Shown here: piece after piece, positions 6,736 through 22,779 of the stretch | Numbering within the stretch: the first letter of the stretch is position 1 | Layout of the letters: each line of letters opens with the position of its first letter | NCBI GenBank assembly: GCA_024276465.1 | Contig: JAJRXD010000152.1 | Span: forward strand, 1 to 41,320 | Length of the DNA stretch: 41,320 bases | Reading direction: 5' to 3' | From: Deltaproteobacteria bacterium | Lineage (GTDB): Bacteria; Desulfobacterota; WTBG01; CAIYCZ01; CAIRTM01 | The notes under the pieces: model-generated | The model's input: only the letters and a program-made list of their open reading frames with translations | Database searches by the model: none | What the model was told of the DNA's origin: nothing | Program-made: the position numbers and the translations under genes

Positions 6736-8361
6736 ATGAATCAATTAATTATTTTCGATCTTTTAACAATTCTGGTGTCAGGTTTCTTTGCAGGACTTTT
6801 TTGCAGGTTTTTGAAAATCCCTATGCTGGTTGGTTATATTGCTGTTGGTGCATTGGTGGGAAGTGGTGGTTTTGGCTGGATTGGCGGTCAGCACCATGAA
6901 ATTGAATATCTCGCTGAGGCAGGGGCTCTCCTGCTGCTGTTTTCAATCGGGCTTGAATTCTCACTGAAAGAACTGACCAGCCTCGGGCGTCATATTGTGG
7001 TTGGTGGTGCTGTTCAGATGATGCTGGTTGCTCTCCCTGTGGCCTGCTTTGGGATCGCAGCCGGGTTGCCGTGGGAACCCTCCATGTTTTTAGGCCTGTC
7101 AATTGCTTTGAGCTCTACCATCCTGGTCTTCAAATCCCTGGCAGAGTACGGCCAGACGGCAAGCCCGGGCGGGCGGCGCTCGCTTGCCATCCTGCTGTTT
7201 CAGGATATGGCAATTGTACCCATCCTTTTACTTGTACCTCTGCTTACGGGACAAACCTCTGAGAGAAGCATTGTCGATTATATTTTCATGGCAATTAATT
7301 CGACATTTCTAATAGCTACCATCCCGGTACTGCGTAAAATACTGCAATTATGGATATCTCCGTTTCTGTCCAGACAACGCAGCCCCGAATTGATCGTCCT
7401 GTTTGTTTTGTCTCTTCTCGGTGTACTGACAGCAGTCACGTATAAGGCTGGACTCCCACCTTCGCTGGGTGCCTTTGCCTGCGGGCTGGTGCTCAACGGG
7501 AATCGCCTTACCGGCCAGATAGATGCTCTTGTACTTCCATTTCGGGAAACGTTTGCCGCTATATTCTTTGTAAGCCTCGGCATGCTCTTTAACCCCAAAA
7601 TCATTATGCATGCACCGCTATTTGCAGCAGGTGCTTTTGTCAGCATTCTGCTGATCAAATCAACTGCAGGATGCATTGCAGCACGACTGACCGGACTGGC
7701 ATGGCGCCCGTCGTTTGGCATTGGGTTAGGGTTGTCACAGATTGGTGAGTTTGCGTTCATCCTTGCTTTTGCCGGGCTGCAGGCTGGTGTGATTTTAAAA
7801 TCACACTATGATTTTTTGCTGGTTTTTGCTATCGGATCATTGGTGTTAACTCCGATCTTGCTGAAAACAGGTTTCAGGCTGATGGCATACGAAACCTCTT
7901 CAGGGTCTTTTAGTGAAAGTCCCACAGCAGAGTTGATGCAGAATGATCTCCCCAGTGCTCTTATTGTTGGAATTGGCCATATTGGCAAACAGATTTCACT
8001 GCACCTTGAGACGCGGGGGTTTTTAGTCTGTGCAGTGGATTTGAGCCCTGTTAACCTCCATCCTCTATCTCTTCAGGGCATAGCAAGTATTACAGGTGAT
8101 GCCAGAGACCCTGAAACACTTGAGCGTGCGCGTGCAGAGACTGCGCAGCTTGTAATTGTATGTGTGCCTGATGATATAATGGCAGTAGATATTGTTAAGT
8201 CAATTCGCTCATGTAATCCAGACTGCACAATCCTCGTCCGCTGCCGGTACCATCTGACAGCGGAAGAATTGAACAAATTCGGTGCGGATATCATAATCAC
8301 CGAAGAAACTGCCACGGCTAAAGCATTGCTTGATGTGCTTGCAGAAAAAGACATGATTTAA
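6736..8361 (+). CDS. CPA2-family monovalent cation/proton antiporter with TrkA-N domain (KefB/YbaL-like)
   Basis: 541 residues. The first 390 or so form a 12-13 helix Na+/H+-exchanger core: an early LVGYIAVGALVG, the signature LLLFSIGLEFSLKEL, GLSIALSSTILVFKSL, LPPSLGAFACGLVLNG and GLGLSQIGEFAFILAF. A Rossmann TrkA-N domain follows (about 405-525) with VGIGHIGKQ as nucleotide-binding loop and an acidic residue in VCAVDLSP at the end of the second strand, typical for NAD(H) binding. It would exchange potassium or sodium for protons across the inner membrane, gated by nucleotide. The protein stops after TrkA-N and lacks the TrkA-C domain of some relatives. It is monocistronic, with terminators on both sides. 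Ion preference cannot be read from sequence; KefB-like potassium efflux is the best guess. Confidence 0.93.
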   Translation: MNQLIIFDLLTILVSGFFAGLFCRFLKIPMLVGYIAVGALVGSGGFGWIGGQHHEIEYLAEAGALLLLFSIGLEFSLKELTSLGRHIVVGGAVQMMLVALPVACFGIAAGLPWEPSMFLGLSIALSSTILVFKSLAEYGQTASPGGRRSLAILLFQDMAIVPILLLVPLLTGQTSERSIVDYIFMAINSTFLIATIPVLRKILQLWISPFLSRQRSPELIVLFVLSLLGVLTAVTYKAGLPPSLGAFACGLVLNGNRLTGQIDALVLPFRETFAAIFFVSLGMLFNPKIIMHAPLFAAGAFVSILLIKSTAGCIAARLTGLAWRPSFGIGLGLSQIGEFAFILAFAGLQAGVILKSHYDFLLVFAIGSLVLTPILLKTGFRLMAYETSSGSFSESPTAELMQNDLPSALIVGIGHIGKQISLHLETRGFLVCAVDLSPVNLHPLSLQGIASITGDARDPETLERARAETAQLVIVCVPDDIMAVDIVKSIRSCNPDCTILVRCRYHLTAEELNKFGADIIITEETATAKALLDVLAEKDMI

Positions 8362-8590: not shown

Positions 8591-8852
8591 TATAATAATA
8601 CGGCTTGACCATGAAGGCGGTGTTAGAATGACGATTTTTATAAACAGGTTAAAGTTTTTTCTGTGCTGCTTTTGCCGGAAATTTCATAGGCAAACAGCAT
8701 GTATAACAGAGGTCCTGAGCAGTCATAAGATGCGTTAAAAAATTGCCACGATCCGTTTCGTATTGCTGCAAACGGTTACTTCCATCACATTGGATAAAAC
8801 TATACCGGCATTTGAATAACGAGTGAAGAAGCATGAAGGCACCAGAATAAAA

Positions 8853-9140
8853 ATGGAAGAGCACAAAACGGATCAGGATCAATTCATCGAGCTTGATGTT
8901 AAAAAGCTTAAACACATAGAAGCGGAACGTAAAAGGATCTTAACATCCGGGATGAACGATATGCATTTCATGCGCTGCCCGCGCTGCAGCCGGACTCTCG
9001 AACAGAAGACAATTACAGATATAGCCATTATTATATGTGCACAGTGTAAAGGAATATGGATAGATGATGAGAGTCTTGCAAAGGTGCTTAGACTTTCCGG
9101 AGATATGGCAGATGATTTTTTTAATCATGCAACAAAATAA
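8853..9140 (+). CDS. TFIIB-type zinc-ribbon mini-protein (first copy)
   Basis: 95 residues from the ATG at 8853; a GTG at 8823 in frame would add ten. The N-terminal half is a charged, probably helical stretch rich in Lys and Glu. The C-terminal half is a zinc ribbon of the zf-TFIIB type: MRCPRC, then CAQCKGIWIDD 16-20 residues later, giving two CxxC knuckles. This family is widespread in bacteria and its molecular role is unknown. It is a clear paralogue of the gene at 9936-10238: the same LHYMRCPKC-like start of the ribbon, the same GIW/GVW-D motif, and a similar C-terminal hydrophobic tail. The pair brackets an acyltransferase and precedes a release-factor homologue. The gene is confidently real; the function is not known. 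Confidence 0.82.
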   Translation: MEEHKTDQDQFIELDVKKLKHIEAERKRILTSGMNDMHFMRCPRCSRTLEQKTITDIAIIICAQCKGIWIDDESLAKVLRLSGDMADDFFNHATK

Positions 9141-9170
9141 TTACACCTGTTCCCCATTAAAGAAGATCAA

Positions 9171-9782
9171 ATGGCAACTCTTTTGAACTGGCTATCTTTA
9201 CGGACATGGAAAAACAAATATATTGTGAAGAGAGGCAAAAAAACAATTGTCCACTACACTGTTATGCTCAGAAAAAGGAAATCCTTAATACTTGGTTCAA
9301 ACGTTAAAATAAAACATCATGCAATGCTGAAAGGCAGAATAATCGTTGGCGACAATACGGACATAAGCGCATACGTAGTAATAAAAGCCAATAAAAAAAG
9401 TGCGGTAACGATTGGTAATAATTGCTTAATACGTGAGTTTTCATACCTTGACTCAATTGGTGGAATAAAAATCGGGAACAATGTCAGGCTGTCACACCAC
9501 GTTTCATTAATTGCAAGCACACATCATTTTGAAAGAACCGATATTCCCTTCAGCGAGCAAGGCATGTATACCAAAGGAGGTATCACTATTGGAGATGATG
9601 TTCTTATTGGCGCCGGAGCCAAGGTCCTTGATGGTGTTACTATTGATAATGGTGCAATAATCGGTACCAGTGCAGTTGTAACGCACAATGTAAAAACACA
9701 CAGCATTGTCGGTGGAATCCCTGCCAGGGAAATTAACGTTAGAGGGCGACCGAAAACAAACCTGCTAAAAGCCCAAGCGTAA
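9171..9782 (+). CDS. Hexapeptide-repeat O-acyltransferase (LbH family, WbbJ/colanic-acid acetyltransferase-like)
   Basis: 203 residues. Repeated hexapeptides of the [LIV]-G-x-x-x-x type form a left-handed parallel beta-helix from about residue 40 to 190 (IIVGDN, VTIGNN, IKIGNN, ITIGDD, VLIGAG). The catalytic-type histidine lies in the loop around STHHFERTDIPFSEQG, followed by GGITIGDDVLIGAGAKVLDGV and the closing VVGGIPA-like signature SIVGGIPAREI. Such enzymes move acetyl or other acyl groups from acyl-CoA to sugars. The first 35 residues are basic (TWKNKYIVKRGKK) and carry no signal peptide, so it is cytoplasmic. It lies 30 bases after the first zinc-ribbon gene, suggesting one transcript. 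Its acceptor is unknown and no polysaccharide cluster is near, which is unusual for the family. Confidence 0.88.
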   Translation: MATLLNWLSLRTWKNKYIVKRGKKTIVHYTVMLRKRKSLILGSNVKIKHHAMLKGRIIVGDNTDISAYVVIKANKKSAVTIGNNCLIREFSYLDSIGGIKIGNNVRLSHHVSLIASTHHFERTDIPFSEQGMYTKGGITIGDDVLIGAGAKVLDGVTIDNGAIIGTSAVVTHNVKTHSIVGGIPAREINVRGRPKTNLLKAQA

Positions 9783-9935
9783 TAAGTGTAACAGATTATA
9801 TCAAAAGCATCATGAAAAAACAGGGCCAGGATATGAAAGATCATGACTAAATAAGGACTAATAACTCTCATTTTAAGACGGCTTGAACAAAAATCATTTA
9901 ATCAATTCTTATATAAAAATAACGGGGGTCAGAAT

Positions 9936-10238
9936 ATGTCTACCAAACCGACAGAGCAGGAAGAAGCTTTTTTTGTCAGGCGTGAATTTGAGGAAGCCAA
10001 AAAGGTTGTAAGGCAGCGCCAGAATCTTCTTGAAACAGAAGAGCGCTTAAAACTCAAAGAACTGCACTATATGCGATGTCCTAAATGCGGCATGGAGTTG
10101 GTGGAAATAGATTACAGGGGAATAAAGGTTGATAGATGCACTGCATGTGACGGAGTATGGCTTGATGCAGGAGAACTGGAGATGGTTGTGCAGCTTGATA
10201 AATCGATAATTAACAAATTCTTCGATATCTTTCGCTAA
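9936..10238 (+). CDS. TFIIB-type zinc-ribbon mini-protein (second copy)
   Basis: 100 residues. The N-terminal 45 are strongly charged and likely coiled coil (FEEAKKVVRQRQNLLETEER). The C-terminal ribbon has MRCPKCG and, 20 or so residues on, CTACDGVWLDAGEL, followed by a short amphipathic tail ending FFDIFR. It is a paralogue of the product at 8853-9140, with the same order of helix, ribbon and tail. GGGGGT upstream of the ATG is a plausible ribosome site. It is separated by about 60 bases from the release-factor homologue downstream and likely cotranscribed with it. Real gene, role unknown; a nucleic-acid or ribosome-binding adaptor is only a guess from the ribbon class. Confidence 0.85.
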   Translation: MSTKPTEQEEAFFVRREFEEAKKVVRQRQNLLETEERLKLKELHYMRCPKCGMELVEIDYRGIKVDRCTACDGVWLDAGELEMVVQLDKSIINKFFDIFR

Positions 10239-10299
10239 AAAAAGAGATTTTTAATGGGCTGAGATCTGATAAAAAAAAGAAAAGGAGGTTCATAAAAAC

Positions 10300-11445
10300 A
10301 TGGAGATGAAGGAACTGAAAAAACATGTTCGCACATTGGCAACTTTGCCGGAAACTGATGCTCCCGTTATCAGCTGCTACTTAGAGCTTTTCAATGGAAA
10401 AATCAAGTCTCGAGACACCTATAAGGAGCTTACGCGGGCTGTAATGGTTGGCCTGAGTGAACAGGAACTCTATAATGTTCGGAAAGCACAGGAATCTATC
10501 ACCGAGTATCTGCTAAACAATCTTCTGCCTGATGCAAAAGGGATCGCAGTTTTTTCCAGAGCCGGCGACGACGCTTTCTTCCTTCCACTTCAGTTCAGAG
10601 TTCCGCTCCCTAACTGGGTTTCCTTGAGTTCGACACCAAACATCTACCACCTTGTGGAAATGAAGGACACCTATCACCGCTACGTTGTAATGATCAGCAC
10701 GAAAAAGAGTGCGCGCATAGTAGAGGTCAACCTGGGTGAAGTGACAGCGCAGCTGTGGCAGGAGAGGAAGGATCTTCGCGAACGCGTAGGCCGGGAATGG
10801 ACCAAAGAACACTATCAGAAACACAGCAAGGAACGGGGGTTGAAGTTTATTAAGGAAAAGATCAAAATACTGGAACAGATAATATTGGCAGGCGGACATA
10901 CACACTTGATACTTGCCGGCCATCCCACGATGACCAGCCGCGTACGCAACGAGCTACCCAGGCATTTACTGGAAAAGCTTGTTGACGTGGTCACAATAAA
11001 CGCCCAGGCCAAGTCCGTAAATGCAGTTGAAGCAACCATCGCCTCTTTCGTTGAAGCAGAAGAAATTGAATCGCAGCTTGTAGCAGAACTTCTTTCCCAG
11101 AAAATTCACACGGGTGGACTTGCAGTTGCCGGAGCTGAGGGTAGTTTCAAGGCATTGAAACAGAGACAGGTAGATACTCTTGTGTTGCTTGGCAACTATT
11201 CACCCGGCCCGGCCTGGATCTGTGAAATCTGCGGTACTGCAACCGTTAAGAAAAAACGACCTGATGCATGTGCTGAATGCGGCAGCATTTCGTTAAAAAG
11301 TTTTGATCTCAAGGAAGAGATGGTCAGGCTTGCAGAAGGGCAGGACTGCTTAATTGAGGTCGTTAATGACAGCGAAGCTTTGGTAAAACTCGGCGGGATC
11401 GGATGCCTGCTGCGTTACCAGCTGCAAAATGGATGCGCCGGTTAG
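10300..11445 (+). CDS. Bacterial archaeo-eukaryotic-type release factor homologue (baeRF family 10-like) with C-terminal zinc ribbon
   Basis: 381 residues. The layout resembles the bacterial eRF1-like proteins described by Burroughs and Aravind (baeRF families): an N-terminal alpha/beta domain (about 1-130, ending in PLPNWVSLSSTPNIYHLVEM); a central domain beginning YHRYVVMISTKKSARIVEVNLG with a helical stretch WTKEHYQKHSKERGLKFIKEK where eRF1 has its catalytic loop; and a C-terminal L7Ae/eRF1-3-like domain (about 250-381). Inside the last domain is a zinc ribbon with C308/C311 and C324/C327. No GGQ tripeptide occurs anywhere, so classical peptidyl-tRNA hydrolysis is not expected. The ribosome site (AAGGAGGT) is near perfect. 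Ribosome rescue or quality control is the inferred role; family membership is from memory of the architecture, not a search. Confidence 0.78.
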   Translation: MEMKELKKHVRTLATLPETDAPVISCYLELFNGKIKSRDTYKELTRAVMVGLSEQELYNVRKAQESITEYLLNNLLPDAKGIAVFSRAGDDAFFLPLQFRVPLPNWVSLSSTPNIYHLVEMKDTYHRYVVMISTKKSARIVEVNLGEVTAQLWQERKDLRERVGREWTKEHYQKHSKERGLKFIKEKIKILEQIILAGGHTHLILAGHPTMTSRVRNELPRHLLEKLVDVVTINAQAKSVNAVEATIASFVEAEEIESQLVAELLSQKIHTGGLAVAGAEGSFKALKQRQVDTLVLLGNYSPGPAWICEICGTATVKKKRPDACAECGSISLKSFDLKEEMVRLAEGQDCLIEVVNDSEALVKLGGIGCLLRYQLQNGCAG

Positions 11446-11655: not shown

Positions 11656-11799
11656 TTAAGACGAGTAAAGGGGCGCCTGTACAGGCGCCCCCTGTATATA
11701 TAGACTCCCGGCGGGAGGGATAATATCAAAAACGATGATTACAGTGATACCCATGAAGACCAAAACTATTCCCGCTAAATAATGCTTACTGTTGCTCAT
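11656..11799 (-). CDS. Candidate small single-pass membrane protein, 47 residues
   Basis: The minus-strand frame starts MSNSKHYLAGIVLVFMG and has one hydrophobic helix (about residues 8-27) with a polar N-terminus and a Pro/Gly-rich tail (PPAGS, then GAPVQAPLYSS). This is the usual look of a bacterial small membrane protein. The ribosome site is weak (GAG about ten bases upstream). The tail is encoded across two palindromes, so it might be partly derived from a repeat. It stands alone on the minus strand between two + strand genes. No family recognised; chance coding is possible. Confidence 0.35.
   Translation of the reverse strand: MSNSKHYLAGIVLVFMGITVIIVFDIIPPAGSLYIQGAPVQAPLYSS
11670..11691. 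repeat. Perfect 22-base palindrome
   Basis: A self-complementary sequence beginning GGGGCGCCTG and ending CAGGCGCCCC. Thirteen bases further on, CTCCCG and CGGGAG around a central G (11705-11717) make a second small palindrome. It resembles GC-rich REP-type hairpins found between genes in many bacteria. Neither palindrome has a T run, so they are not standard terminators. Confidence 0.75.
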
Positions 11800-16452: not shown

Positions 16453-16683
16453 TTAATACTCAACCACCATGCCACAGCTGTCACAGCAATAGCGGGTATT
16501 ATTGCCCTGCTCTTCAGTGATCTTTTCAAAATCCCTTCGACTTATCTTATGGGTTTCCAGGCATTCGGGACAGCAGGATCTTCCAAGCTCATCTTCAGTG
16601 ATGATGAGATGACAATGCCTGCAACGAAGTTTATTGTCTTTGGTCTTCACCAATGTAAGGACATCGTGTTTGCATGATTTCAT
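16453..16683 (-). CDS. Small zinc-ribbon protein, 76 residues
   Basis: Cysteine and histidine pairs are spaced as in zinc or iron ribbons: CKH near the N-terminus, CRHCH, CCPEC followed by H, and CCDSCG just before the C-terminus. There is no membrane segment or signal. It converges on the activase gene, ending 12 bases from that gene's stop, and lies 58 bases after the DUF6599 gene, so it may be the last gene of the DUF362-DUF6599 unit. Binding of a metal is a safe inference from the Cys pattern; the role is unknown. I see no good ribosome site, which lowers confidence in the exact start. Confidence 0.7.
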   Translation of the reverse strand: MKSCKHDVLTLVKTKDNKLRCRHCHLIITEDELGRSCCPECLETHKISRRDFEKITEEQGNNTRYCCDSCGMVVEY

Positions 16684-22381: not shown

Positions 22382-22564
22382 TTTAACATTAAATTTAACA
22401 CGGGCTTAAGTCTGCGGCTACCAGCTTCCAAAATTAATTGGTACAGCTAAAAAGCTGAATTTAAAGAAAATATTTATATACCTTTTTATACATCAGGTCA
22501 ACTATATGTTTCAGTCTGACAGCTTTCAGCTTCAGACCTTCGCAGACATCCTTTAATAATCTGC

Positions 22565-22750
22565 GTCTGTACCTTTGTCCCTCTGTGCCTTTGTCCCTCT
22601 GTACCTTTGTCCCTCTGTACCTTTGTCCCTCTGTGCCTTTGTCCCTCTGTACCTTTGTCCCTCTGTGCCTTTGTCCCTCTGTGCCTCTGTCCCTCTGTGC
22701 CTTTGTGCCTTTGTGCCTCTGTGCCTCTGTGCCTTTGTCCCTCTGTGCCT
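22565..22750. repeat. Tandem 8/16-base repeat array
   Basis: About 185 bases built from the unit CCTTTGTCCCTCTGTG or its A variant (16 bases), with an 8-base sub-period (CCTNTGTN); the distal part decays into plain 8-mers. Because 8 is not a multiple of 3, every frame on a strand cycles through the same octapeptide (for example GTKAQRDK-like on the minus strand), and the long frames seen here are by-products. It lies between tRNA-Arg and the end of the TPR gene, close to that gene's stop. Length is likely variable between strains. Confidence 0.92.
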
Positions 22751-22779
22751 GGTTCCCCTGATATGTTCATTTCTGAGCT

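Follow-up and report, generated by a model that had tools for sequence, protein, structure and literature searches.

A baeRF family-10 clade with altered catalytic loop and stress and ion-transport neighbours: a candidate Balon-like hibernation factor

Introduction

Most families of baeRF proteins, the bacterial homologs of eukaryotic release factor eRF1, have no tested function. Family 10 (PF18854), described by Burroughs and Aravind (2019; PMC6514570), has the three-domain aeRF1 architecture and carries a Pelota/eRF1_3 zinc ribbon. In the same work, this ribbon was considered ancestral to the superfamily, in which a two-strand insert and the ribbon occupy one insertion site, and family 10 was singled out for a conserved glutamine in its catalytic loop, with nascent-chain release suggested as a possible activity. 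A second related system is the ribosome hibernation factor Balon, represented by Psychrobacter Balon and the mycobacterial proteins MSMEG_1130 and Rv2629 (PMC10901736). Balon genes are known to reside in stress operons; the main text of that paper uses none of the terms 'antiport', 'cation' or 'universal stress'. In the literature, HPF is the commonest neighbor of Balon. Finally, another mycobacterial hibernation factor, Mpy, is recruited by the zinc-binding CXXC protein Mrf (Mpy recruitment factor; PMC13418864).

Here, we describe a family-10 member of 381 residues, referred to as the factor in the following, which is encoded in a 41,320-nucleotide stretch of deltaproteobacterial DNA (the window). 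We propose, with a probability of roughly 0.6, that it acts like Balon as a stress hibernation factor. Because the clade around it combines a clear catalytic-loop hallmark with a recurring stress and ion-transport neighborhood, it offers a concrete test of hibernation versus peptide release in family 10, and its recurrent association with very small zinc proteins provides a starting point for asking how such factors might be switched.

Gene layout of the locus

The factor gene is the last of four open reading frames on the plus strand, which follow an antiporter gene in the same orientation:

6736..8361, plus strand: cation/H+ antiporter with a TrkA_N domain (PF00999, 7.6e-50; PF02254, 3.2e-19), a conserved neighbor
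8853..9140, plus strand: ZnR1, TFIIB-ribbon mini-protein of 95 residues (PF13453, 6.6e-10, 38.7 bits)
9171..9782, plus strand: hexapeptide-repeat acyltransferase of 203 residues (Hexapep, 1.7e-20)
9936..10238, plus strand: ZnR2, TFIIB-ribbon mini-protein of 100 residues (PF13453, 2e-16, 59.5 bits)
10300..11445, plus strand: the factor, a baeRF family-10/Balon-like protein of 381 residues with three eRF1-type domains (PF18854, 2.1e-16)
10789..10818, plus strand: loop GREWTKEHYQ at the GGQ position, residues 164-173 (alignment of 44 family members)
11221..11280, plus strand: zinc ribbon CxxC-x12-CxxC inside domain 3, residues 308-327 (sequence; alignment with the aRF1 ribbon)

An earlier note, made from the sequence alone, had described this arrangement as two paralogous TFIIB-ribbon genes that flank an acyltransferase and precede an eRF1-type gene on one strand, and the reading frames, the PF13453 matches and the 28% identity between ZnR1 and ZnR2 bear it out. 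ZnR1 might also start at an in-frame GTG at 8823, which would extend it to 105 residues. Scans for promoters and terminators returned about as many sites in the window as in shuffled sequences. About 225 bp 3' of the factor gene, at 11670-11691, lies a perfect palindrome, GGGGCGCCTGTACAGGCGCCCC, which the terminator scan did not call.

Family and fold of the factor

The factor is a member of baeRF family 10 with the three-domain fold of aRF1, eRF1 and Balon. It matches PF18854 with 60.9 bits, above the Pfam cut-off of 27.1, and a profile built from eight close relatives retrieved as its top PDB matches the Balons MSMEG_1130 (1.5e-8) and Rv2629 (1.1e-7), followed by aRF1 (4.2e-7). In Foldseek comparisons, the AlphaFold model, which is of moderate quality (pLDDT 74, pTM 0.43) and leaves the loop at the GGQ position unresolved (pLDDT under 50 for residues 159-179), matched archaeal aRF1 (4af1, 7.5e-19) and Balon (8v9j, 5.7e-18) over its whole length; the Balon VIA structural match had a Z of 16.6 with 325 residues aligned at an rmsd of 15.6. 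All three domains were covered in the matches to aRF1, eRF1 and Balon, so that the eRF1-like fold supposed in the earlier note is found in the model, which also supports its presumption of a ribosome-associated factor, just as the HMM searches it had proposed for the baeRF and zf-TFIIB families yielded matches above cut-off for the factor and both mini-proteins.

By sequence, the factor is about equally close to archaeal release factors and to Balon, with an identity to the latter of approximately 16%. In NCBIfam, it scores best against the family of the Rv2629 ribosome hibernation factor (7.8e-12), although its 45 bits lie far below the equivalog cut-off of 320; likewise, the MSMEG_1130 family was matched with 36.5 bits against an equivalog cut-off of 480. 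In a phylogenetic tree, the factor belongs to a separate clade that splits from distant family 10 with 98% SH-aLRT support. Phyla are intermixed within this clade, which suggests that it spread laterally.

The loop at the GGQ position and the question of peptide release

Like Balon, and in contrast to aRF1 and eRF1, the factor has no GGQ, as the earlier note had recognized and as is evident from both its sequence and the alignment of 44 family members. At this position, most distant family-10 proteins carry GGW(A/S)Q, whereas the factor clade mostly has GREWTKEHYQ; W167 and Q173 are retained, while RE stands in for the GG of GGW(A/S)Q and K for its +2 glutamine. Given this replacement, peptide release by the factor clade appears unlikely.

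These residues also bear on the best-surviving alternative, namely that the factor is catalytically active, as a peptidyl-tRNA hydrolase or rescue factor that would set stalled ribosomes free through nascent-chain release. The glutamine for which family 10 was singled out (PMC6514570) could be either the one in GGW(A/S)Q, a lysine here, or Q173, whose retention in nearly all clade members speaks for such an activity. Q173, however, sits in the following helix, where an HMM alignment places a glutamine in both mycobacterial Balons as well. Together with the loss of the GG and the +2 glutamine, this makes a hydrolase unlikely in our view.

Further motifs were sought in domain 1. An exact NIKS, as in aRF1/eRF1, is missing from the factor; NGKIKS at residues 32-37 (window 10393-10410) follows the first strand of the domain and resembles the eRF1 NIKS loop. 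At this place, G004, the nearest relative (73% identity), reads NGNIKD, and the remaining clade members do not conserve the motif. Residues 1-113 contain no His-Pro pair, the HP motif with which domain 1 of Balon contacts the decoding center being incompletely defined in the text of PMC10901736.

The domain-3 zinc ribbon

The earlier note had called the factor 'zinc-ribbon-tailed'. The CxxC/CxxC ribbon is indeed there, formed by C308, C311, C324 and C327, yet it is not a tail; in a profile alignment, it is an insert within domain 3, at the same place as the ribbon of archaeal aRF1. Balon instead has a β-hairpin in domain 3, at the EF-Tu interface. Most of the 44 aligned family-10 proteins retain the ribbon, which is missing in L018, L019, L186 and L187, grouped together in the tree with 99% SH-aLRT, as well as in L020 and L172; some members of the factor clade are without it. 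Its retention in most of these proteins shows that the factor's ribbon is an ancestral domain-3 insert, in agreement with Burroughs and Aravind. With the factor's ribbon being a family-wide ancestral feature, the ribbon theme that it shares with the mini-proteins, which had been taken as meaningful, is in part coincidence.

Genomic neighborhood across phyla and a model of function

The factor clade was sampled at 24 loci, which come from Desulfobacterota, Planctomycetota, Acidobacteriota, SAR324, KSB1 and Verrucomicrobia. At 12 of them, the gene for a universal stress protein or for a cation/H+ antiporter lies within 4.5 kb, compared to 1 of the 20 loci of distant family-10 members (Fisher p of 0.002, an optimistic value as some clade loci are not independent of each other, i.e. 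W/G004, G1070/G1071 and G747/G768, and with controls drawn from one phylum) and to 2 of 32 ZnR2 loci elsewhere. In Pfam tallies, which are based on hand-picked neighbor proteins from loci that are not fully independent, the clade's neighbors further include Na/Ca exchangers, CNNM, TerC, Mrp subunits, ion channels, DUF1538 and MpsC, none of which ranks among the top families in either control set. By contrast, the largest distant family-10 group is accompanied by PdxJ, AcpS, NAD(P)H-hydrate dehydratase and TsaE. While the clade thus shares a stress-type neighborhood with Balon, the factor has no HPF/RaiA neighbor; the HPF gene of this genome (PF02482) lies on another contig, unlinked to the factor.

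If the factor acts like Balon, it would occupy the ribosomal A site under stress, instead of tRNA or a release factor. Domain 1 would lie at the decoding center and domain 2 at the peptidyl-transferase center, while domain 3 with its ribbon would face EF-Tu. The factor would thereby block translation reversibly, without releasing the peptide. Judging by its stress and ion-homeostasis neighborhood, it would probably be produced in response to a failing energy supply or a disturbed proton or cation balance. Hibernation is likelier than the ribosome rescue or quality control envisaged in the earlier note, which was probably wrong on this point: the clade has lost the catalytic-loop motif, and Balon-type hibernation factors are the closest bacterial proteins that have been characterized.

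The TFIIB-ribbon mini-proteins

No PF13453 protein other than ZnR1 and ZnR2 was found in this genome; both exceed the Zn_ribbon_TFIIB cut-off of 22 bits and have the CxxC...CxxC pattern. The model of ZnR2 (pLDDT 69.5) consists of a long N-terminal helix (H7-43), the ribbon strands and two C-terminal helices. No paper using the name zf-TFIIB turned up in the literature searched.

A first look, limited to Desulfobacterota, had given little sign of linkage between ribbons and factor: in about ten genomes with a factor and a full-length ZnR2, the two were on the same contig only in G000 and G004. That comparison included distant family-10 factors, and the picture changed with the cross-phylum clade. 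Six genomes from four phyla (G000, G004, G1115, G963, G1070 and G1071) encode a PF13453 protein within approximately 6 kb of the factor, where chance alone, judged by the PF13453 counts in these genomes, would give 0.044 such cases. In G1115 (SAR324), a ZnR2 relative is located 160 bp downstream of the factor; in G963 (Planctomycetota), the ribbon gene comes after a universal stress gene; and in G1070 and G1071 (KSB1 group), it stands beside the antiporter rather than the factor. In G1070, G1071 and G1115, the linked ribbon is the genome's only PF13453 match. The association is therefore real, and it is optional: most clade loci have no mini-protein, and in Desulfobacterota ZnR2 frequently occurs where no factor is nearby, so that each can do without its partner. 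Of the earlier claim of a common ribbon theme, this cross-phylum link is the part that stands.

The linkage beyond chance raises the possibility of a zinc- or redox-gated module, in which one or both mini-proteins attach to the factor or to the ribosome and thereby govern the factor's recruitment, as Mrf does for Mpy. Mrf, like the mini-proteins, is a zinc-binding CXXC protein and serves a hibernation factor, but this factor is Mpy rather than Balon, and an Mrf-like action here would be hypothetical, the two being likened by description. Such gating is doubtful, since, besides the many loci without a mini-protein, 12 of 23 genomes lack any PF13453 match at E 1e-5, two genomes have the ribbon gene by the antiporter and the linked ribbons do not form one orthologous group. 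Equally doubtful is the broader scenario of a laterally spread stress module, in which the ribbons are gated partners of a Balon-type factor without the family-10 loop motif and couple hibernation to ion or proton imbalance. Under the hibernation reading that we prefer, the mini-proteins would be recurrent but optional neighbors, most likely small zinc proteins under common regulation.

The acyltransferase

The locus of G004 has the same order as the window, with the antiporter immediately upstream, followed by ZnR1, ZnR2, the factor, a 151-residue protein without a Pfam match and a GreA/GreB-C-terminal (Rnk-like) protein; ZnR1 and ZnR2 are direct neighbors there. This otherwise colinear locus lacks the acyltransferase: the DNA alignment breaks off at the end of ZnR1 and restarts just before ZnR2. 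A homolog with 51% identity is encoded on another contig of G004, and none of the others among 39 relatives has one at E 1e-30. Consequently, the acyltransferase is a local insertion, or was lost in G004, and is not part of a conserved set; it would be a bystander. The four-gene cassette proposed in the earlier note, dedicated to rescue or quality control and including an acyltransferase with an unusual substrate, is consistent with the shared direction of the genes and the small distances between them in this genome (30, 153 and 61 bp), but the colinear G004 locus and the failure to find all four genes together at any other locus in the relatives examined make it highly improbable.

Additional observations

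Downstream of the factor in G004 (G004:C64:10164-10259; L002:3240-3360), there is a decayed third TFIIB-ribbon copy, ZnR2-like and without a full first CxxC. On the minus strand of the window, 16453-16683 encodes a cysteine-rich protein of 76 residues with weak zinc-ribbon matches below cut-off (best E 8e-4), and the open reading frame at 22498-22770, whose translation is a strongly repetitive GTEGQRHRGTEAQRHK-type sequence, is probably a DNA repeat read spuriously as a gene. Lastly, another family-10 group with a GGWAQ loop (L115-L117, L119-L121, L123, L127 and L132) forms a steady cluster with the PdxJ, AcpS, NAD(P)H-hydrate dehydratase and TsaE genes as well as aspartokinase-type genes, which suggests a housekeeping role.
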